DNA from: a virus
Direction: 5' to 3' (one strand)
IMG/VR virus record: IMGVR_UViG_3300025099_000176
Location: 1 to 20,996 of that record
DNA length: 20,996 nucleotides
Of the stretch, positions 3,330-11,183 are shown in pieces (the first letter of the stretch is position 1; each line of letters starts with the position of its first letter). A program made the translations under genes and the position numbers. Below the pieces are notes generated by a model. The model was not told the origin of the DNA. It ran no database searches and was given only the letters and a program-made list of their open reading frames with translations.

Positions 3330-3344
3330 TTAACAACTTGTTAA
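3330..3344. promoter_or_regulatory. Dispersed palindrome, site 1
   Basis: TTAACAA-C-TTGTTAA, perfectly symmetric around one central base, flanked by AGC on the left and ACT on the right. In the divergent control region, about 250 bases upstream of the gene at 3599. Confidence 0.75.
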
Positions 3345-3471
3345 ACTAATAAACTGTTATGGTATCAGTTGTTTAATTGATAATGTTTTGATGTAATGAT
3401 ATTTGAAAAGTGAATTAAATACATATCGTATGCATATTCTAAAACATATACCCCATTAAAACCCTTGCAGA

Positions 3472-3486
3472 TTAACAAGTTGTTAA
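3472..3486. promoter_or_regulatory. Dispersed palindrome, site 2
   Basis: TTAACAA-G-TTGTTAA, perfectly symmetric, with GCT on the right. It lies 112 bases before the gene at 3599, next to weak promoter-like elements (TATAAA at 3505-3510), so it could act as an operator for that gene. Confidence 0.75.
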
Positions 3487-3598
3487 GCTAACCCTAAATT
3501 ATTTTATAAATACGCTTGACTTATTTGAGAATATCTATAAATTGATAATTGTTGATCAGCAATTAAGCATTTCAACTTTTTACTTAGGAACTAAAATT

Positions 3599-4231
3599 AT
3601 GACAAATCAATATGTAAATGGAACTTTTTCTAAATCTTATTTTACTGCTTCAAATAACTTTGATCTTAAATTATCTAAGTCTTTAACGTCTAACATTGAA
3701 CAATGGTTTATTGATTGTGACGATATGCAAGCGTTACCAAAAAATGATAAAGGTGAGTTAGCTAACAAAACTTTAAAAGATACTAATTACGAATTGTTAG
3801 CCTTGCCAAAATATGCGAATGAAAAGGGTAAAATGTTAAAAGTTGATAATGAGAAAAAAGATGAAATTAGATTTTTTCTAGCAACTAATACTGAGTACAA
3901 GGGTAAAAAACAAATTCGTGATTTATTCGATAATTCAACAGTATTTTTAAATAGCTATATGAAAAAGTTTTTTGATTATAAAGCACCTGAAATTGTGAAG
4001 CCTGAAGAGAAGCCTGAAGCAACTACTGTTGAAACTGATACTGTTGAGATTGTTAAAACTCAAGCTGAAATTCAAGCTGAAACAATGCAACTTGCATATT
4101 CAAATCTTTATAACCTTATGGCAAAAAATAATATTACAATGGACACATTTTATGAATTTGCCTTGCAATTAGAAACTGATAATAATATCAATATTGAAAA
4201 GATTGAAGAGTTAAAATTAAAAACAGCTTAA
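3599..4231 (+). CDS. Unknown 210-aa protein in a stand-alone transcription unit
   Basis: It starts at ATG 3599 with AGGA upstream; a TTG start at 3542 is possible but has no ribosome site. The protein is Lys/Asn/Glu-rich and soluble. The N-terminal two thirds look folded (about residues 1-130). A Pro/Glu/Thr-rich linker follows (PEEKPEATTVETDTVE), then a helical C-terminal domain. No helix-turn-helix, enzyme motif or membrane segment is visible. It is the only gene between two non-coding regions, has its own terminator, and its stop codon overlaps a copy of the dispersed palindrome. Base use is even more AT-rich than its neighbours, suggesting separate acquisition (moron-like). It might be a regulator acting at the palindromes, but that is speculation. 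Confidence 0.85.
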   Translation: MTNQYVNGTFSKSYFTASNNFDLKLSKSLTSNIEQWFIDCDDMQALPKNDKGELANKTLKDTNYELLALPKYANEKGKMLKVDNEKKDEIRFFLATNTEYKGKKQIRDLFDNSTVFLNSYMKKFFDYKAPEIVKPEEKPEATTVETDTVEIVKTQAEIQAETMQLAYSNLYNLMAKNNITMDTFYEFALQLETDNNINIEKIEELKLKTA

Positions 4232-4242
4232 CAAGTTGTTAA
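4228..4242. promoter_or_regulatory. Dispersed palindrome, site 3
   Basis: TTAACAA-G-TTGTTAA, perfectly symmetric. It overlaps the TAA stop of the stand-alone gene (GCT TAA) and is followed 13 bases later by the terminator stem. Confidence 0.75.
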
Positions 4243-4255
4243 ACCAAACCCCAAA

Positions 4256-4290
4256 CCCTAGGCAATTAATTTTGTCTAGGGTATTTTTTT
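4256..4290 (+). terminator. Rho-independent terminator
   Basis: CCCTAGGCAA (4256-4265) pairs with TTGTCTAGGG (4272-4281) through ten base pairs including one G-T wobble, around a six-base loop, followed by TA and seven T. It ends the transcript of the gene at 3599-4231. Confidence 0.9.
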
Positions 4291-4338
4291 GCCTAGAAAA
4301 AAGTATATTTTTTTAAAAATTACTATCCTACTATCCTA

Positions 4339-4416
4339 GTGGTGGTGGTGGTGGTAGTCGTGCTTCCGTGCAAATTACAATGCCTGCAAGCTAATGTTGG
4401 TGGTAGGTGGTGGGGG
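4339..4416 (+). repeat. GGT repeats and potential G-quadruplex tract
   Basis: A GTG-GTG type microsatellite (4339-4357) is followed by five G-runs of two to five bases between 4399 and 4416 with one- or two-base loops, enough for a two-tier quadruplex on the plus strand. Such asymmetry is often found near replication signals; the role here is inferred. Confidence 0.45.
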
Positions 4417-4420
4417 TAGC

Positions 4421-4435
4421 TTCACAAGTTGTTAA
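4421..4435. promoter_or_regulatory. Dispersed palindrome, site 4
   Basis: TTCACAA-G-TTGTTAA; the left half-site carries C instead of A. Flanked by AGC on the left. It lies 67 bases upstream of the -35 of the promoter at 4503. Confidence 0.7.
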
Positions 4436-4439
4436 CTGT

Positions 4440-4469
4440 ACCCCAAACTCAAGTGGTAGTGGTTGGGGT
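4440..4469. repeat. Inverted repeat ACCCCAA/TTGGGGT
   Basis: ACCCCAA (4440-4446) and TTGGGGT (4463-4469) form a 7-bp stem with a 16-base loop, located between palindrome site 4 and the rightward promoter. No T-run follows. It may be a protein site or part of an origin. Confidence 0.4.
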
Positions 4470-4472
4470 GTA

Positions 4473-4491
4473 AGCTGCTGAGGTGTCAGCT
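4473..4491. repeat. Inverted repeat AGCTG/CAGCT
   Basis: A 5-bp dyad with a nine-base spacer ending 11 bases before the -35 of the promoter at 4503, the usual position for an activator or repressor site. The short arms make it a weak call. Confidence 0.3.
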
Positions 4492-4502
4492 AAGTCCTTG
4501 AT

Positions 4503-4531
4503 TTGACATAATAAATTACTTGTGTTATAGT
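4503..4531 (+). promoter_or_regulatory. Rightward sigma70 promoter P1
   Basis: TTGACA (4503-4508), 17-base spacer, TATAGT (4526-4531) with TG before the -10. It should start transcription near 4538 and serve the small early genes from 4602. The stretch TATACATAAT just after the -10 recurs after the promoter at 5596. Confidence 0.85.
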
Positions 4532-4570
4532 ATATACATAATGAGAGAACAACTTACCGAGCAATTCAGC

Positions 4571-4585
4571 TTAACAAGTTGTTAA
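4571..4585. promoter_or_regulatory. Dispersed palindrome, site 5
   Basis: TTAACAA-G-TTGTTAA in the 5' leader of the P1 transcript, six bases before the Shine-Dalgarno of the gene at 4602. A protein bound here could block transcription elongation or translation. Confidence 0.75.
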
Positions 4586-4601
4586 ACTATAAGGAGCTAA
4601 A

Positions 4602-4808
4602 ATGTACTACATAATTAATAATCATACTCAAGAGTATCAGTTTTTTAGAAACAATATGTTGCAGAATAATCCTCACCCATTTGATACGAGGGAAGATGCA
4701 CTAGCTAATATAAACAAGTATTTCTATTCTGTTGGTCATTGTGAAATGTACTTTAAGCACCTAGTTGACAAATACTTTACTATTAAGTATATTAAACCAA
4801 GATTTTAG
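4602..4808 (+). CDS. Hypothetical protein, 68 aa
   Basis: First gene after promoter P1, with AAGGAG six bases before ATG. The protein is rich in Tyr, Phe and Asn (FDTREDALANINKYFYS, then HCEMYFKHLVDKYF), suggesting a compact alpha/beta fold of the kind often seen in early phage inhibitors. No family recognised. The next gene follows after 11 bases. Confidence 0.75.
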   Translation: MYYIINNHTQEYQFFRNNMLQNNPHPFDTREDALANINKYFYSVGHCEMYFKHLVDKYFTIKYIKPRF

Positions 4809-4819
4809 AAGGAGATTAC

Positions 4820-5110
4820 ATGAAGAAAGGTTTTGAAAATGGGAGTCTAGTTCCTATCAGTCATGGCATACAATCGCATAGTGGTAGTATGCATCTACAT
4901 GCAGATAGGGAAAGCTTCAAGGATATGTATATTATAGCTAGTCGTGGGGGTGCGTTGAATGATGTAAGCAACCTACGTGAGTATAATAAACAAAAGCAGA
5001 AGGAGAAGAACGTCAATGCTCTTAGTAGACTTATTGCTAGGGGTAAAGAGAGAGCAAGTAAACTAAATTCAGCTTCACAAGTTGTTAAACTGTTCAACAA
5101 GGAGAACTAA
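4820..5110 (+). CDS. Hypothetical protein, 96 aa
   Basis: Good Shine-Dalgarno (AAGGAG) before ATG 4820. The N-terminal half is His/Ser/Gly-rich (SHGIQSHSGSMHLHAD). The C-terminal half is a charged helix (REYNKQKQKEKNVNALSRL and onward). Palindrome site 6 lies in frame near the 3' end and encodes SASQVVKL, so the coding sequence has absorbed the DNA element. No family recognised. Confidence 0.75.
   Translation: MKKGFENGSLVPISHGIQSHSGSMHLHADRESFKDMYIIASRGGALNDVSNLREYNKQKQKEKNVNALSRLIARGKERASKLNSASQVVKLFNKEN
5074..5088. promoter_or_regulatory. Dispersed palindrome, site 6
   Basis: TTCACAA-G-TTGTTAA with AGC on the left and ACT on the right. It is inside the end of the gene at 4820 and 23 bases before the start of the next gene at 5112, just upstream of its AAGGAG. 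Confidence 0.7.
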
Positions 5111-5111
5111 A

Positions 5112-5426
5112 ATGTTACAATTAGAGTTAGTCAAGACTGTTCCCTACCTATCATGTGGTGGACAAAACATAAAAGAAGTCTATAGGGGTACTAACGTATC
5201 AGATGCAGAAGTTGAGATTACGCATCACAATAGACATTCAACACATGAGTTGTCATCATCTGTTGGGGTAGCTATACGTCAAGATGTAATATGTGAAAGT
5301 ATTGGTCAGTATCAGCCACCACCAATGCATATACACAAAGCGAAAGTATTTAGGACTATGGAAGAAGCTAAAAGGTGGGCAGAAACACAAGTCTGTATGT
5401 CTTGGGATATAGGAGAAGAAGTATGA
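5112..5426 (+). CDS. Hypothetical protein, 104 aa
   Basis: The start is ATG 5112 with AAGGAG upstream; an in-frame codon at 5082 lies inside the palindrome and has no ribosome site. The protein opens with a beta-rich segment (LQLELVKTVPYLSCGGQ), has a His-rich middle (THHNRHSTHEL, then PPPMHIHKAKVF) and a C-terminal helix (TMEEAKRWAETQ). The layout suggests a small alpha/beta domain possibly binding metal; this is a guess. It ends with ATGA overlapping the next gene. Confidence 0.75.
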   Translation: MLQLELVKTVPYLSCGGQNIKEVYRGTNVSDAEVEITHHNRHSTHELSSSVGVAIRQDVICESIGQYQPPPMHIHKAKVFRTMEEAKRWAETQVCMSWDIGEEV

Positions 5427-5587
5427 CTGAAAAACTAGGAGCAATCGTACTGTTAATCGTATCTGTGGTGGCAGTAGTCGTATTAGGTAATGACATTATG
5501 TATAGTGCAGGACTACTAATGTTAGCTATCTTTACTATGGGTGTATTAGGTTTATGTGGTGCAATTTATGCCATCATGCGACTATAA
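5423..5587 (+). CDS. Small protein with two transmembrane helices, 54 aa
   Basis: It starts at ATG 5423 overlapping the previous stop (ATGA). After MTEKL there are two hydrophobic helices, about residues 6-23 (GAIVLLIVSVVAVVVLG) and 29-51 (AGLLMLAIFTMGVLGL and onward), joined by a short NDIMYS turn, with a final Arg. It should sit in the inner membrane as a hairpin. Size and topology would suit a class II holin or an exclusion peptide, but the cell wall hydrolase is 3.5 kb away, so neither is established. Confidence 0.7.
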   Translation: MTEKLGAIVLLIVSVVAVVVLGNDIMYSAGLLMLAIFTMGVLGLCGAIYAIMRL

Positions 5588-5595
5588 TACCTCAT

Positions 5596-5624
5596 TTGAC
5601 AAAGTATAAATCATGTGGTATGGT
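5596..5624 (+). promoter_or_regulatory. Rightward sigma70 promoter P2
   Basis: TTGACA (5596-5601), 17-base spacer, TATGGT (5619-5624) with TG before the -10. Followed by TATACATAAT and AACAACT, as at P1, which suggests the two promoters arose by duplication or share a regulator. It drives the gene at 5663 onward. Confidence 0.8.
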
Positions 5625-5662
5625 CTATACATAATAACAACTAAACAATAGGAGAATCTAAA

Positions 5663-5986
5663 TTGCTTATTATAAATTTTGAAGACGTTAAAAAAGGTAC
5701 TACAATTAAAGGTGGTATCACACCAATTAAGATAGCCTTGACTTTATTAAAGTTAAGATATATTGATGGTCATAAGCCTGTTATCTTTAGGAATAAATCT
5801 ATAGTCGAAAAGGGTTGGTTTGTTCGCAAGGGTGAGGGTGGCAAATCAGGTGAAGCCTTGATTAGATTTAATTGGGGTAATAAGTATTCATCTTTCCATG
5901 CCTATAATAGGAATGGTAAGCCTAGAGTAGCACAAAATTGGTACGTTGCTATCAAGTCTGCTCTAATACAAAAGAAAGTAGCTTAA
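5663..5986 (+). CDS. Hypothetical basic protein, 107 aa
   Basis: It starts with TTG at 5663, eight bases after AGGAG; there is no nearby ATG. The protein mixes basic and aromatic residues (KPVIFRNKSIVEKGWFVRKGEGGK, then RFNWGNKYSSFHAYNRNGK), consistent with a small beta-rich nucleic-acid-binding fold, but I recognise no family. The TAA stop lies inside palindrome site 7 (GTA GCT TAA). First gene after promoter P2. Confidence 0.75.
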   Translation: MLIINFEDVKKGTTIKGGITPIKIALTLLKLRYIDGHKPVIFRNKSIVEKGWFVRKGEGGKSGEALIRFNWGNKYSSFHAYNRNGKPRVAQNWYVAIKSALIQKKVA

Positions 5987-5997
5987 CAACTTGTGAA
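5983..5997. promoter_or_regulatory. Dispersed palindrome, site 7
   Basis: TTAACAA-C-TTGTGAA, flanked on both sides by symmetric AGC/GCT. It overlaps the stop of the gene at 5663 and lies 13 bases before a strong AGGAGG. Confidence 0.7.
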
Positions 5998-6078
5998 GCT
6001 ATACAACTAGAGGAGGAGCTAGGCATCTCATACGTTAAACTGCCTACTTACTTTAACTCTAACGACATGGAGATTTAT

Positions 6079-6678
6079 ATGTCAGTACAAAACATACTAG
6101 CCATCTACAATGTGGCAACAACTGATGAGATCAAAGATGGTGTTACATGGTATCGCAGAGCCTATCTCGATTGCAGAAAGATTGCCATCAAACACAAAGT
6201 ACCTATACATATTGTCGTAGGTGTTGTGTCAGCACTATCGCCTAACAACAAGTGGGAACGTAACGTAGTCAATGCAGATGAATTGATTGGTGCATACATA
6301 AATGGAGATGGTATTGATAGCATCAAGGTATCAACGTATCACAAGATGAAGGAGAAAGCATGGCATATACTAGGGCAGATGCCTAGAAAAGATGACGTTG
6401 CTTTTATTCTCAATGGTCAAAAGATTACCTCGTTCTATCAAAATATTATGGGATATGATACGTGTACTGTTGATGGTCATGCTAGGAATATATACTATGC
6501 AGAACGTGAAGGCTTGACTACACCTAAAGTAAACATAGGCAAGAAAGAATATATTATGTTACAACAAGCCTATGTTGATGCAGGTAAGCAAGTCATAGTG
6601 AATGGACAACCCCTAAAAGCCTATGAGATGCAAGCTATAACATGGGTAGCATGGAGACGTATACATGGAATTAAGTAA
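6079..6678 (+). CDS. DUF7178-like / HhH-GPD-like protein
   Basis: About 199 residues from ATG 6079 (GGAG six bases upstream). Recognisable blocks are WYRRAYLDCRKIAIKH, VVSALSPNNKWERNV, KVSTYHKMKEKAWHIL, ILNGQKITSFYQNIMG and TVDGHARNIY. The pair GxKIxSFYxN and VDGHA recalls the lysine/alanine helix and the catalytic-Asp segment (VDTHV) of HhH-GPD DNA glycosylases. I recall a marine phage family labelled DUF7178 with this pattern. A base-excision or DNA-binding role is therefore plausible but unproven. The reading frame is open upstream through a strong AGGAGG (6011-6016), so the true N-terminus could be nearer 6025, where the aligned codon is ATC. Confidence 0.75.
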   Translation: MSVQNILAIYNVATTDEIKDGVTWYRRAYLDCRKIAIKHKVPIHIVVGVVSALSPNNKWERNVVNADELIGAYINGDGIDSIKVSTYHKMKEKAWHILGQMPRKDDVAFILNGQKITSFYQNIMGYDTCTVDGHARNIYYAEREGLTTPKVNIGKKEYIMLQQAYVDAGKQVIVNGQPLKAYEMQAITWVAWRRIHGIK

Positions 6679-6964
6679 CGTATCCTTAAATAGATTAGTA
6701 CCTATCTATCTTATGAGTTCTTTCTTATACTATGAGTGTGATAAGAATGTATTAGAAGATGAGCAGTTTGACTATCTATGTAAAAAACTATATGATAATT
6801 GGGATAAGGTAGAGCATATGCACAAACACTTAATAGACAAGGATAACTTGTTAGCAGGTAGTGGATATGGTATAGAATATACTAGCATGATTAGAGGTGG
6901 AGCAATCAGTTGGTATGAGCAAGAAACAGCTTCACAACTTGTTAAACCAAATCAGGGAGATTAA
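6665..6964 (+). CDS. Hypothetical protein with LigA N-domain-like motif, 99 aa
   Basis: ATG 6665 overlaps the previous gene by 14 bases and has GGAG eight bases upstream. The segment SSFLYYECDKNVLEDEQFDYL resembles the YYxxDxPxxSDxEYDxL motif of the adenylation-associated Ia domain of NAD-dependent DNA ligases, and many phages carry short proteins of this kind without the catalytic domain. It continues with HMHKHLIDKDNLLAGSGYG. Probably an orphan domain, not a ligase. Palindrome site 8 is embedded in the 3' end and encodes ASQLVKP. Confidence 0.7.
   Translation: MELSNVSLNRLVPIYLMSSFLYYECDKNVLEDEQFDYLCKKLYDNWDKVEHMHKHLIDKDNLLAGSGYGIEYTSMIRGGAISWYEQETASQLVKPNQGD
6931..6945. promoter_or_regulatory. 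Dispersed palindrome, site 8
   Basis: TTCACAA-C-TTGTTAA with AGC on the left, inside the end of the gene at 6665 and 21 bases before the ATG at 6967, just ahead of its GGGAG. Confidence 0.7.
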
Positions 6965-6966
6965 AT

Positions 6967-7170
6967 ATGATACAAGTAACTAGACAGTCAGCAATCACTA
7001 GGAAGATAAACACAATGGAGTTACCTATAACTCAAGAACATCTAGACATGTATGAAACTGTAGGGGATATACTTATACAAGATGCTTTCCCTAATCTAAA
7101 TGCAGAACAACGAGAGTTCCTACTAAGTGGTATTACACCACAAGAATGGAATGATACTTTTGGAGAATAA
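6967..7170 (+). CDS. Conserved small phage protein, 67 aa
   Basis: ATG 6967 with GGGAG upstream. The C-terminal half matches a pattern I know from small proteins of many podoviruses and microviruses: an N-terminal beta strand of the type MIxVTRxS, then ITQEHLDMYE, ILIQDAFPNLNAEQREFLLSGITPQEW. These are annotated only as hypothetical. Role unknown. The next start follows after two bases. Confidence 0.75.
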   Translation: MIQVTRQSAITRKINTMELPITQEHLDMYETVGDILIQDAFPNLNAEQREFLLSGITPQEWNDTFGE

Positions 7171-7172
7171 GA

Positions 7173-7388
7173 ATGATACATTGGAAAACTAAAGAAGAGA
7201 TGGGCGAAGGCTATCAACTTAATCAAGATGAACACAAGGATAATGAATACAATTATTTAGTTGTCATTGATGAGCATGAAACTAATACCATGAGAACAAA
7301 ATATCTCATTAGAGATGTGTGGGATATGGATAAACTAGTAGACTTAAAAAATCACTTAGATGATATAATATTAGAGAGGAAAGACTAA
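7173..7388 (+). CDS. Hypothetical acidic protein, 71 aa
   Basis: GGAG before ATG 7173. The protein is acidic and hydrophilic, with a possible beta strand (NEYNYLVVIDEHE) and a C-terminal helix (DMDKLVDLKNHLDDIILERK). Its TAA shares an A with the ATG of the next small gene. No family recognised. Confidence 0.65.
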   Translation: MIHWKTKEEMGEGYQLNQDEHKDNEYNYLVVIDEHETNTMRTKYLIRDVWDMDKLVDLKNHLDDIILERKD

Positions 7389-7522
7389 TGCGAAACACAA
7401 ATAATTTTCAGAAGATTGCAGTAAAGAAGAAGCCTACCAAGACTTACAATAAAGATTGGAAGATTGCTCGGAAGCTGCAACGTAAAAGTAAACGAGTTAT
7501 GCAGGAGAAAGTATATGCTTAG
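7388..7522 (+). CDS. Short lysine/arginine-rich peptide, 44 aa
   Basis: A small gene starting at ATG 7388 (TAATG with the previous stop), with GAGAGGA upstream, ending at TAG 7522. It is strongly basic throughout (AVKKKPTKTYNKDWKIARK, then QRKSKRVMQ) with aromatic residues at intervals. It fits exactly between two neighbours with overlaps at both ends, which supports it being real. It may bind nucleic acid; function unknown. Confidence 0.6.
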   Translation: MRNTNNFQKIAVKKKPTKTYNKDWKIARKLQRKSKRVMQEKVYA

Positions 7523-7748
7523 TAAAATAGAAGTTTCAGTAGACCAACTAGAGATTATCGTAGATGCTCTAGAGACAGAGTATCAATCATGGGAACAAAA
7601 CTTAGGGGGTGATGATGAAGATTCATATGACCGACTACAGTATGAGATGAGTAAGGCTCTTATGATTAAGTTAGATAAACAATTAATACAACTAAGACTA
7701 CTAGAACAGAAGAAGGAGTATGACAATGATATGTGCAAGTTTGTTTAA
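7515..7748 (+). CDS. Hypothetical helical protein, 77 aa
   Basis: ATG 7515 with AGGAG seven bases upstream; it overlaps the previous stop by eight bases. Almost wholly helical and heptad-like (VDQLEIIVDALETEYQSW, then MIKLDKQLIQLRLLEQKKEY), so a short coiled coil or helical hairpin is likely. The 3' end overlaps the methyltransferase start. No family recognised. Confidence 0.7.
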   Translation: MLSKIEVSVDQLEIIVDALETEYQSWEQNLGGDDEDSYDRLQYEMSKALMIKLDKQLIQLRLLEQKKEYDNDMCKFV

Positions 7749-8748
7749 TGGGTGTGGTGTAGGTGCATTAGCTATGCTACGTGCCAACTTACCCATCACT
7801 AAGTTTTACTATTCAGAGATAGACAAGTATGCCAACATAGTTATGGAAGCTAACTTTCCTGATGCTATACCTATAGGAGATGTAACCAAGGTTGATGCTA
7901 GTAGTTTCAATGATGACATAGATATTTTAATGGGTGGCTCGCCTTGTCAGGGATTTTCTTTTGCAGGACATCAGCTTAACTTTGATGACCCACGTAGTAA
8001 GTTATTCTTTGAGTTCATACGTATCAGAGATGATGTCAAGCCTAAGTATATACTCTTGGAGAATGTACGTATGGCTAAGAAATCACAAGATATCATATCT
8101 GAGTACATGGGATTTGAACCACAAGCTAAGAACTCTAAGTGGCTTAGTGGTCAGAATAGGTACAGACTTTATTGGTGGGGTAAGCTACAAGCTGATGGCA
8201 CATACAAGCAGATGCCTATTGATGACATGATTGACAAGGGTATTACTATGCAAGACATACTAGAAGATGGCTATGCTACAGATGAAATGACTAGCCAAGA
8301 TGGTAAGTCTCATTGTCTTACTGCTAGGTATAATGGTGCAGTATGGTGGAATAGTATTGAACGTAAGCAACGTACTATGGTACTGAAAGATAACCCTACC
8401 ATGTCCAAAGATGGATTGATTAGGGTTGGTACTGCTGACCTCAAAGGGCATGACTCAATCAAGCGAGTGTATGCACAAGAAGGCAAAGCACCTACTCTTA
8501 CTACCATGCAAGGTGGACACAGAGAACCAAAGGTTGCAGTATCAAAAGATATGTGGCGAAAGCTGACACCCCTAGAGTGTGAACGATTGCAGACATTACC
8601 TGACAACTACACCAATCATGTATCCAATTCGCAGAGATACAAGATGATTGGTAATGGGTGGACAGTTGATGTGATTGCACATATACTCAAGGGTATACAG
8701 TTAGATGAATGGTTTGATATGTATAACAACACAGAGGAGAGAGTATAA
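7726..8748 (+). CDS. C5 cytosine DNA methyltransferase (Dcm-like), solitary
   Basis: Transfers a methyl group from S-adenosylmethionine to carbon 5 of cytosine in DNA. From ATG 7726 (340 aa) the motifs are in order: I SLFNGCGVGA (SAM binding, residues 5-14), IV GGSPCQGFSFAG with catalytic Cys74, VI ENV at 112-114, VIII QNRYR at 143-147, a variable target-recognition region, then APTLTTMQGGHR and motif X YKMIGNGWTVDVI. The start at 7726 is chosen because AAGGAG is seven bases upstream; the ATG at 7720 is too close. No restriction endonuclease is nearby, so it more likely protects phage DNA from host enzymes or marks it. Recognition site not predictable. Confidence 0.95.
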   Translation: MICASLFNGCGVGALAMLRANLPITKFYYSEIDKYANIVMEANFPDAIPIGDVTKVDASSFNDDIDILMGGSPCQGFSFAGHQLNFDDPRSKLFFEFIRIRDDVKPKYILLENVRMAKKSQDIISEYMGFEPQAKNSKWLSGQNRYRLYWWGKLQADGTYKQMPIDDMIDKGITMQDILEDGYATDEMTSQDGKSHCLTARYNGAVWWNSIERKQRTMVLKDNPTMSKDGLIRVGTADLKGHDSIKRVYAQEGKAPTLTTMQGGHREPKVAVSKDMWRKLTPLECERLQTLPDNYTNHVSNSQRYKMIGNGWTVDVIAHILKGIQLDEWFDMYNNTEERV

Positions 8749-8939
8749 TGAATGTAGATAATTACTATAAACAACTTGAAGGTTTTAGAATAAAGAGTTA
8801 CTTAGGAGAAAGTAAAGATGGCTTTCCACAGTTTCATCTAACCAAGCCTAGATACAAAGATGTCAAGGTTGAGGTAAGTGCAGATGGAGAAGGTAACTAT
8901 GGTGGTGTATTGTTCCTAAGTGAAATGGAGACTGCGTAA
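8748..8939 (+). CDS. Hypothetical protein, 63 aa
   Basis: It starts in a TAATG overlap with the methyltransferase, with GGAG upstream. Residues YKQLEGFRIKSYLG, FPQFHLTKP and VSADGEGNYGGVLFLSE follow a pattern seen in short phage proteins; the GGVLFLSE-type end is typical. Probably a single small beta-rich domain. Role unknown. Confidence 0.7.
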   Translation: MNVDNYYKQLEGFRIKSYLGESKDGFPQFHLTKPRYKDVKVEVSADGEGNYGGVLFLSEMETA

Positions 8940-9133
8940 TGGCTTTTGACCAAATGAATATTAAAGATATGTTGTGTGATATGTATGACATTCAACGTCA
9001 AGTTAAGCAAGCTAAGTTACTTGATAAGCCAAAAGATAATGATGGAACTATCTTTACAATTAAAGATTGTTTTGACAATGTTATTGGTCAATTAGAACAA
9101 GAACTTGAACGTAGAGGACAGGAGATAAACTAA
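8939..9133 (+). CDS. Hypothetical helical protein, 64 aa
   Basis: TAATG overlap at both ends and GGAG eight bases before the start. The protein is helical and charged (IKDMLCDMYDIQRQVKQAKLL, interrupted in the middle, then VIGQLEQELERRGQE), with possible coiled-coil character. No family recognised. Confidence 0.65.
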   Translation: MAFDQMNIKDMLCDMYDIQRQVKQAKLLDKPKDNDGTIFTIKDCFDNVIGQLEQELERRGQEIN

Positions 9134-9564
9134 TGTTATTGGAATCAATGATATGCCTAGCACTCAACGTGTACCATGAGGCTAAGAATCAAAGTTTCAT
9201 AGGGCAAGTGGCAGTCGCACAAGTTGTGATGAATAGGGTAAAGGATACACGATACCCTAACACAGTATGTGACGTAGTTAAGCAAGGTGCAACATATAAA
9301 TGGAAGCCTGACTTTCCTATCAAGAATAGGTGTCAGTTCAGTTGGTACTGTGATGGCAAGAGTGACAAGCCTAAAGAACATCAGGCATGGAGAACTGCTA
9401 TGCACATTGCTAATGGTGTATACAATGGACACTTAGATGACTTTGTTGAGGGTGCTACACACTACCATGCACACTATGTCAATCCTAGTTGGGCAGATAC
9501 TAAGACGTATGTAACACGAATAGATGACCACATATTTTATAGATGGGAGATTAAAGATGAATAG
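9133..9564 (+). CDS. SleB/CwlJ-family cell wall hydrolase (probable endolysin)
   Basis: A 143-residue Hydrolase_2 (SleB) domain protein. It contains NVYHEA with the catalytic Glu (residue 16), the helix VAQVVMNRV, the loop TVCDVVKQ, CQFSWYCDG, and the C-terminal GATHYHAHYVNPSWA, all characteristic of this family, which cleaves peptidoglycan glycan strands. The protein is domain-only, with no signal peptide, so it would need a holin to reach the wall. It likely lyses the host at the end of infection. Start ATG 9133 with AGGAG. It overlaps the next gene by eight bases. Confidence 0.9.
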   Translation: MLLESMICLALNVYHEAKNQSFIGQVAVAQVVMNRVKDTRYPNTVCDVVKQGATYKWKPDFPIKNRCQFSWYCDGKSDKPKEHQAWRTAMHIANGVYNGHLDDFVEGATHYHAHYVNPSWADTKTYVTRIDDHIFYRWEIKDE

Positions 9565-10156
9565 ATTTATTATAGAAAAAACACCAAAGGAGATATCTAA
9601 GTCTCTATGTGACCAACATGTAGTTAAGATGCCACTAGAAGAAGCACAGATGTTATGTACAACGCTATGGCATTATGTACCTGACTATGCAGAGGAGTAT
9701 GACTTGTACAAACCTGTTCATCAGAAGCACCCATGCACATTGTGGGCAATGGAATGTCGCAAGAATTATGAGTGGGCATTTGGATTGTATCACTTCATGC
9801 TTGAGGAGTACACGAACAGATACAAGAAGGTGCATGGTGCGAGTAAACATTATGATGCTTTGAAGTTGGGTGCTAAGTTTGTGCCTGACACTACTAACTT
9901 TATCACACCACATCCACAATGTTTTAGTGGGCATGATGACTTGAAGACAGATGAGAACTTTCCTATCCAAGCATACAGAAGTTTTTATATTGTTGACAAG
10001 ATGAAGTTTGCGAGGTACAAGTATACAGAGATACCTGAGTGGTTTGAAGAAGAAGATGAACACATAGCTTGTTATAGTTATCCTAACTGTGATGAAGCAC
10101 CACTTGGATGTATCGTATCACAAGGCTCACAAGCAGAGTCATATGGACACAGATAA
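9557..10156 (+). CDS. Conserved phage protein with CDQHVVKM signature, 199 aa
   Basis: ATG 9557 with GGGAG seven bases upstream; an earlier in-frame start has none. The protein contains CDQHVVKMPLEEAQMLCTTLW, then HPCTLWAMECRKNYEW, YTNRYKKVHG, FPIQAYRSFYIVDKMKFARYK and IPEWF. I recognise this arrangement from marine phage and cyanophage proteins, some of which are annotated as pyrimidine-dimer DNA glycosylase-like. The evidence for that activity is thin. Conserved His, Lys, Glu and Cys suggest an enzyme, perhaps acting on DNA. The last 30 residues (YPNCDEAPLGCIVSQG) are Cys-containing and may be a tail. Confidence 0.7.
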   Translation: MNRFIIEKTPKEISKSLCDQHVVKMPLEEAQMLCTTLWHYVPDYAEEYDLYKPVHQKHPCTLWAMECRKNYEWAFGLYHFMLEEYTNRYKKVHGASKHYDALKLGAKFVPDTTNFITPHPQCFSGHDDLKTDENFPIQAYRSFYIVDKMKFARYKYTEIPEWFEEEDEHIACYSYPNCDEAPLGCIVSQGSQAESYGHR

Positions 10157-10171
10157 AGGAGAGATTTAAAA

Positions 10172-10876
10172 ATGAAAATACATAGAGTAGTACAGATGTT
10201 AGGTGCAACAACAAGCACAGGTAAATTAGCAAGTGATATGTATGACTTAAACTATAAGACATATTATTCAGAAGCAGAGGGTAGAGATATACCTATATCA
10301 CACATGGACTTTCAACATATGGTCAGAGCATTTGTGAAACAGAATGACGAAGACGTTAGGACTGATACACAAGAAGGTAAGATAAAAGAACAAGCAAAGT
10401 TCTATGATGATGTTGTTGAAAAGAACGACAAAATATATAGGAAAAAGATAAAGGAACTTGAGTTAGAAAACCAACGTCTTGTCCAACAACTTGAGCATGA
10501 TGAAACTGTAGTACCTAGAGAAGCCTATCAAGTAATGTGGGATAACTGTAAAAAGTTAACTACACAGGTAGAAAACTTACAAGAAAGATGTAACACTAAA
10601 GATAATATCATGGAAAGTTTACGTGATAAATTATATGATGCATCATCTTTACAAGGGTGTTACTATACCTTTAGTGAAGTACCACAAGATGCAGAAGGTA
10701 ATGCCTTTATCAAGAACTGTAGAAAGTATTTGAATAGAGATTCATATAAGATAAGAGTTAAAGGACAACACCTTAAACCTGAGTTATATGGAAAGGGTAG
10801 AGCATATCATGGTGCAAACATGGAAGATTCTACACACATGAGAGTTTATATTGACACAAAGAGAGGAGATGAGTAA
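10172..10876 (+). CDS. Hypothetical coiled-coil protein, 234 aa
   Basis: Good Shine-Dalgarno (GGAGAG) before ATG 10172. An N-terminal domain (about 1-60) is followed by a long charged coiled coil, about residues 70-160 (KIYRKKIKELELENQRLVQQL and on), and a C-terminal region of about 70 residues with a possible globular fold (CYYTFSEVPQDAEGNAF, then YKIRVKGQHLKPELYGKGR). No known domain recognised. The stop overlaps the next start (TAATG). It may be a scaffold or adaptor. Confidence 0.75.
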   Translation: MKIHRVVQMLGATTSTGKLASDMYDLNYKTYYSEAEGRDIPISHMDFQHMVRAFVKQNDEDVRTDTQEGKIKEQAKFYDDVVEKNDKIYRKKIKELELENQRLVQQLEHDETVVPREAYQVMWDNCKKLTTQVENLQERCNTKDNIMESLRDKLYDASSLQGCYYTFSEVPQDAEGNAFIKNCRKYLNRDSYKIRVKGQHLKPELYGKGRAYHGANMEDSTHMRVYIDTKRGDE

Positions 10877-11127
10877 TGGCTAAAAAAACAAAAGAAATAA
10901 ATAAAATACTCAATTTAACTAAACATCAAGCAAAACAGATACTAGATATGCTTGAGGATTTACGTAGTATCAATGCAAACACAGATGAAAAAGTTCCACT
11001 AGATTACGAACAGATATGCAAGCTAGATGGAATGGAGTTTCAACTTGCTAACATAGTAGGTGCTAAAGTTGAGTGCGAACATGGACATTATACAAGATGG
11101 AGTGGGTCTTATGAATATAAGACTTGA
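10876..11127 (+). CDS. Hypothetical protein, 83 aa
   Basis: ATG 10876 overlaps the previous TAA; GAGAGGAGATG upstream supplies the ribosome site. A helical N-terminal half (LNLTKHQAKQILDMLEDLRSI) and a small C-terminal region with CEHGH. No family recognised. It is the last gene before a short non-coding gap that carries a promoter-like element and palindrome site 9. Confidence 0.7.
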   Translation: MAKKTKEINKILNLTKHQAKQILDMLEDLRSINANTDEKVPLDYEQICKLDGMEFQLANIVGAKVECEHGHYTRWSGSYEYKT

Positions 11128-11152
11128 CTTCTGTCTCAATATCTTATACAAC
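11124..11152 (+). promoter_or_regulatory. Candidate promoter before the DUF932 gene
   Basis: TTGACT (11124-11129), 17-base spacer, TACAAC (11147-11152); TATACA two bases earlier is an alternative -10. Weaker than P1 and P2 and without the TG extension. It starts just at the end of the preceding gene and would give a leader containing palindrome site 9. Confidence 0.4.
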
Positions 11153-11168
11153 ACAATTATAAATCAGT

Positions 11169-11183
11169 TTAACAAGTTGTTAA
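11169..11183. promoter_or_regulatory. Dispersed palindrome, site 9
   Basis: TTAACAA-G-TTGTTAA with GCT on the right, 28 bases before ATG 11212 and just ahead of its GGGAG. It is the last copy seen in the window. Confidence 0.75.

Follow-up and report, generated by a model that had tools for sequence, protein, structure and literature searches.

A candidate palindrome-binding regulator encoded by the first gene of the early region in a marine podovirus of HMO-2011 type

What is encoded by the first gene of the early region in this viral DNA, and how is it connected with the palindromes on either side of it? The window analysed here, meaning the whole stretch of DNA, comprises 20,996 bases and represents an IMG/VR record in full. 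The DNA polymerase that it encodes shares 63.6% identity with its counterpart in Puniceispirillum phage HMO-2011, and we therefore regard the window as a fragment, about 21 kb long, of an HMO-2011-type marine podovirus. Phages of this type are reported as a dominant group of marine viruses (PMC9038755). The gene in question, here called the regulator gene, is the first rightward gene past a divergent region of 685 bases, and the leftward gene set starts at position 2913. A preliminary description had placed it between two operator copies and proposed either a moron or a regulator controlled by its own product.

The gene is well isolated, the leftward gene being 685 bases away and the following rightward gene 370, and it is followed by an intrinsic terminator whose surrounding region folds with z = -3.1 (96 nt). 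This bears out the earlier view of a stand-alone gene with a terminator of its own. Its GC content is 27.5% against 36.5% (about 36%) for the downstream region, confirming that it is richer in AT than its neighbours. The same gene is found on two further contigs, L005 (93% identity) and L006 (83%), which form group A with the window; two scans for additional group A relatives recovered only these two, and a tblastn search of annotated phages with the window protein found no relative. The dN/dS value against L005 is 0.08, a sign of purifying selection that shows the gene to be real. A GGT-rich simple-sequence stretch occupies 4339-4415, past the terminator and before the next palindrome; it is conserved in L005 and, in part, in L006.

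Table 1. Positions of the regulator gene, its putative recognition helix, the palindromes and the transcription signals in the window
Feature	Position	Strand	Remarks
Regulator gene	3599..4231	+	ORF with ATG start, 210 aa; relatives at 93% and 83%
Putative recognition helix, residues 112-127 (NSTVFLNSYMKKFFDY)	3932..3979	+	Last helix before the linker; inferred from group C
Palindrome copy 1, TTAACAACTTGTTAA	3330..3344		Divergent intergenic region; conserved in L005 and L006
Palindrome copy 2, TTAACAAGTTGTTAA	3472..3486		112 bases upstream of the regulator start codon; conserved in L005 and L006
Palindrome copy 3, TTAACAAGTTGTTAA	4228..4242		Overlaps the regulator stop codon; conserved in L005 and L006
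Palindrome copy 4, TTCACAAGTTGTTAA	4421..4435		Upstream of putative early promoter; conserved in L005
Palindrome copy 5	4571..4585		Past promoter-like sequence, 16 bases before next gene; conserved in L005
Palindrome copy 6, TTCACAAGTTGTTAA	5074..5088		At end of ORF 4820-5110; conserved in L005
Palindrome copy 7, TTAACAACTTGTGAA	5983..5997		Over stop of ORF 5663-5986; conserved in L005
Palindrome copy 8, TTCACAACTTGTTAA	6931..6945		At end of ORF 6665-6964; conserved in L005
Palindrome copy 9	11169..11183		Gap before DUF932 gene (11212); other words or none there in close relatives
Intrinsic terminator of regulator gene	4255..4282	+	Hairpin and T run; hairpin conserved in L005 and L006
Putative early promoter, TTGACA-17-TATAGT, extended -10	4501..4542	+	42-bp copy at 5594-5635, 76% identical
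Second putative early promoter copy, TTGACA-17-TATGGT	5594..5635	+	Promoter-like sequence

The 210-residue product had been described as matching no known family, and our searches agree: neither it nor its sister groups have a significant family in Pfam or PHROGs. Matches to RelB, MazF and DNA-binding proteins in the family and fold searches were weak, at chance level, and were rejected. The AlphaFold prediction of the window protein with group B relatives is poor (mean pLDDT 37.5). The model of group C found no match in a PDB fold search, and its comparison with viral folds gave a weak match to a ParB/Sulfiredoxin protein (E 0.54). Profile comparison links groups C and G, and also groups B, F/I and H, while hhalign found no significant link between window group A and groups B-J, and phmmer comparison with group C or B members gave E 0.03-0.5.

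The palindrome TTMACAASTTGTKAA occurs nine times, from 3330 to 11183, in the early region only. The copies differ by 0-1 base and extend to about 21 bp as AGCTTMACAASTTGTKAARCT. The two copies flanking the gene, 112 bases upstream and at the stop, had been noticed before and are both real; they belong to a set of nine, a family that the preliminary description had missed. With up to three mismatches allowed, 11 matches are found where 2.2 are expected, and 0 of 100 shuffles reach 11. No copy lies deeper than 31 nt inside any gene, although just 26% of the region qualifies (p ~5e-6 under random placement). All nine copies recur at corresponding places in L005; in L006, whose contig ends shortly past the gene, the three readable copies are all conserved. 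The 99-aa ORF at 6665-6964 resembles NAD-dependent DNA ligase in no part but its N-terminal NAD-binding domain (PF22745, E 4e-13), which here apparently forms a stand-alone protein.

These repeats could in principle belong to the host. The element TTAAC-N5-GTTAA within TTAACAAGTTGTTAA corresponds to the known CtrA consensus, the window sites fit TTAA-N7-TTAA, and the hosts known for such phages belong to the alphaproteobacteria, so that the palindromes might be CtrA boxes that tie the phage to the alphaproteobacterial cell cycle, the 210-aa protein being unrelated. We consider this extremely improbable, given that the N5 centre (AASTT) and the flanks are conserved across all nine sites, that the words of close relatives at the same places (GCCACAAGTTGTGGC, TTCCCAACTTGGGAA and GTCCCAAGTTGGGAC) are not CtrA boxes, and that the group C word follows the phage protein, as described below. 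Near relatives with DUF932 proteins 90-97% identical carry TTAACAASTTGTTAA, GCCACAAGTTGTGGC, TTCCCAACTTGGGAA or nothing at the spot before that gene, a change of words that looks like specificity switching among close kin. The sister words GCCACAASTTGTGGC and GTCACAASTTGTGAC, when scanned for, turned up mostly as single copies, which are probably due to chance; three copies were found in L344 alone, which is the L051 contig.

The slot is occupied by a gene in other HMO-2011-type phages as well. HMO-2011 gp74 (205 aa), CRP-345 gp01 (210 aa) and CRP-1 gp01 (208 aa) are annotated as hypothetical proteins and are mutually homologous. HMO-2011 carries five copies of TAGTCCG-N4-CGGACTA, one upstream of gp74 and one just beyond it, and the CRP phages carry five to six copies of GTCCAAYRTTGGAC. 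The three proteins resemble the window protein in slot, size, layout and possession of their own early-region palindrome family, whereas their sequence similarity to it is not significant and the palindromes differ. The stretches read of CRP-603, CRP-2, CRP-207 and HTVC033P contain neither the gene nor palindromes.

A systematic survey covered 49 loci anchored on the 70-aa leftward neighbour and used a motif-blind palindrome finder. It reported a palindrome family in 25 of them, each lineage with its own word, such as TGTAGCACCTGCTACA (11 exact copies), TGTCTGAACATCAGACA (10), GTAATCACCGATTAC (8) and TCCCGATGTCGGGA. All 25 contain an ORF of 178-340 aa located 450-1100 bases from the anchor. 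Another locus, L120, which is cut short, has the gene together with two exact sites and one variant. In HMO-2011-type loci whose early region can be read, the slot gene, of 180-320 aa, is thus present in 26/26 with palindromes (L120 included) and in 0/22 without (one locus with just 533 bases left out); the loci are related to one another, so that the counts cannot be treated as independent. A family of three exact copies appeared in 0/175 shuffled early regions and in none of the late regions. The window shows the same arrangement, its gene being the first rightward one after the divergent region, with its own palindromes upstream and at or past the gene. Six loci without palindromes (L130, L155, L156, L159, L161 and L164) carry, near the divergent region, an early gene whose product has 118-132 aa (GYWFQ.TGLTGQNLSE...); it may be an alternative regulator, and no repeated word family was found alongside it in these loci.

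The association also holds when the protein is taken as the starting point. The group C protein alignment was searched against viral contigs by protein alone and 80 loci were kept, 79 of which have at least two GTCC[AG]N4[CT]GGAC sites. The corresponding search with group B protein gave ten loci, all ten with 3-10 copies of TCCCAAGTTGGGA.

Group C operators fall into two classes, GTCCA and GTCCG. The best of 185 alignment columns in separating the classes are 110, 117, 114 and 120 (z 4.9, 4.1, 4.0 and 3.4). In the group C AlphaFold model (pLDDT 77) they form one face of one helix (109-125), the last before a disordered linker. Position 110 is Thr with GTCCA and Ser with GTCCG in 13 of the 14 nearest opposite-class pairs. 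A tree of residues 1-104 requires about 11 changes of operator class, and L210 and L213, 90% identical over those residues, nevertheless differ in operator class and in helix 109-125.

Column 138 also separates the classes, but does so solely because the linker coding sequence contains an operator at that point (SNVG/SDVG), and was discounted as a specificity residue. An operator inside the linker coding sequence is seen in L042, L052, L148, L152, CRP-1 gp01 and others, where it is read as SQVGT, SNVG, SDVG or PDVGE; the site therefore fixes part of the regulator protein sequence.

Taken together, the association, the protein-first searches and the covariation of group C residues with operators support the slot family as operator-binding regulators, and the group C specificity residues in particular are strong evidence that the slot protein is the operator-binding protein. 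The regulator half of the original proposal thus gains strongly from gene-palindrome co-occurrence and residue-operator covariation. Its other half, a moron, or an early host-takeover gene lying between the repeats by accident, becomes a minor rival: low GC, a stand-alone unit and the gene's own terminator would all suit it, but it leaves the strict association of slot gene and palindrome family, and the specificity covariation in the related group, without a place, and we judge it very improbable.

The symmetry of the sites also bears on whether DNA or RNA is recognised. The repeats might act as RNA, as gene-border hairpins that the regulator binds or an RNase cleaves. They do lie near the starts and stops of co-transcribed genes, and 22 of 24 asymmetric group C sites, mostly from one clade, would retain G-U pairing when transcribed in the sense direction. 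Against this, the window variants TTCACAAGTTGTTAA and TTAACAACTTGTGAA break pairs without wobble, the central base is G as well as C within the one genome of the window, and the symmetry reaches the very centre. Moreover, 248/259 group C sites (96%) have a pyrimidine-purine step (TG, CG or CA) at the centre, which suits a bent double-stranded DNA site for a dimer and would be meaningless in a loop. We regard action as RNA as improbable.

For the window protein itself, the layout was drawn by analogy with the group C AlphaFold model, since its own model is poor. It would comprise a helical N part (~1-127), an acidic, proline-containing linker (~128-153) and a short helical C part (~154-210), with the putative recognition helix at the end of the N part. 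The first 140 codons have a dN/dS of 0.06-0.08, with mostly silent changes, and codons 141-200 about 0.5; the N part is therefore held fixed alongside a fixed palindrome, while the C part drifts fast. The words of the window, group B and the near relatives have the centre CAASTTG in common. From slot, size, site layout, conservation together with the sites and this shared centre, we infer that the window protein binds the palindrome. We regard it as almost certain that the product of the window gene is a DNA-binding regulator with the nine-copy palindrome as its site.

How such a regulator would act is suggested by where the sites lie relative to promoter-like sequences. The 42-bp pair in the window is likely to represent duplicated early promoters. 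The promoter-like sequence at 4503-4531 has one palindrome 40 bases beyond its -10, and further copies lie at gene ends. None of 87 sites overlaps a promoter-like sequence, which fits a roadblock rather than operator occlusion of the classical kind. Group B has a site whose end lies 3 bp short of the -35 of a promoter-like sequence preceding the regulator gene; this could serve autoregulation in either direction and would also suit an activator.

The whole reading that we favour, and hold with fair confidence, is that the first early gene encodes a site-specific DNA-binding regulator acting as a dimer on nine copies of AGCTTMACAASTTGTKAARCT, most likely as a repressor. The protein would bind the nine palindromes, including those upstream and downstream of its own gene. 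Bound sites near gene borders or past the early promoters would then block or reduce transcription of the early operon, and the flanking sites would let the regulator tune its own gene; control by its own product, as first proposed, fits these sites. The early genes would thereby be shut off late in infection or in a prophage. Repression with roadblock action is most likely, with activation the main rival. The same protein might bind the palindromes and mainly activate or antiterminate the early genes, or organise the genome through partition or condensation, a possibility to which we assign a low but real likelihood. The lack of overlap with promoter-like sequences and the group B site, placed where activators work, both speak for it, and KorB/ParB-type proteins also use dispersed palindromes (PMC11790492). 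On the other hand, the sites at gene ends and between genes, far past the promoters, resemble roadblock sites, and Pfam finds no ParB family.

The repressor reading invites comparison with the stoperators of the Cluster A mycobacteriophage L5, which block elongation and, as here, are many short sites dispersed over the genome (PMC6550527, PMC9283540). In both systems the intergenic region before the known or putative repressor gene contains a site, and motif and repressor diverge together between relatives. L5 sites, however, are asymmetric 13-mers, mostly in one orientation and bound by a monomer, whereas those described here are palindromes of 14-21 bp. Pfam and PHROGs do not recognise the window protein and the PDB offers no fold match for the group C model, kinship with gp71 having been judged through family models. 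The hosts and the phage group are unrelated, and transcription termination, like the superinfection immunity that the bound repressor confers, is known for L5 and putative here. The window system would work like stoperators while lacking two of their defining features, asymmetric sites and a recognisable repressor.

The OB operators of KorB are present in several copies on the RK2 replicon, as the palindrome is in the window. This plasmid system also shares an odd palindrome with a central base and would share long-range control of many operons (PMC11790492). It differs in that Pfam scans of our proteins detect no ParB N-terminal CTPase domain, the sites belong to a phage early region and no KorA-like partner was identified. 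Lambda CI has palindromic operators, an autoregulated gene at a divergent control region and immunity groups distinguished by their operators, features seen or predicted in the window system and its relatives as well. Lambda operators cluster at two promoters, whereas the window sites span about 8 kb. Unlike CI and XRE repressors, the window protein has no HTH_3/XRE match in Pfam, and the group C model has no PDB fold match.

Diverged or unrelated slot proteins each pair with their own palindrome, and as a set they therefore behave like immunity specificities. The system may serve lysogeny. Integrase genes are common and occur both with and without palindromes, so that they do not separate the two classes. 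A genome search for palindrome-bearing prophages matched two MAG contigs, both without palindromes. The 24-kb contig L177 (QQUU01000028.1), from a Bacteroidetes MAG bin, encodes an HMO-2011-type 70-aa protein (77% identity) and is probably a misbinned phage contig. CRP-3 has been reported to integrate (PMC6918029), and no palindrome family was found in the stretches of it that were read.

The open-access literature contains no account of palindromes or of a repressor in HMO-2011-type phages, and neither is mentioned in the 2022 paper on the HMO-2011 group or the 2019 paper on RCA phages. On balance, by a slight preference, we think that these phages, which rank among the ocean's most abundant viruses, have an unrecognised class of regulatory and immunity systems, in which one slot holds several unrelated or extremely diverged DNA-binding proteins of no known fold or family, each with its own palindrome, and the exchange of a few residues in a single helix has switched specificity repeatedly, giving many immunity types among phages that are otherwise alike. 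The regulator-palindrome pairs of related phages would then be like different locks and keys, a palindromic counterpart to the stoperator idea, hitherto best known from actinobacteriophages. For each of many lineages the analysis supplies a candidate regulator and its predicted binding site, where neither the control of early genes nor the silencing of a prophage had previously been described. The proposed specificity code can be checked by exchanging one to three residues, and marine phages may be sorted into predicted immunity types from sequence alone.
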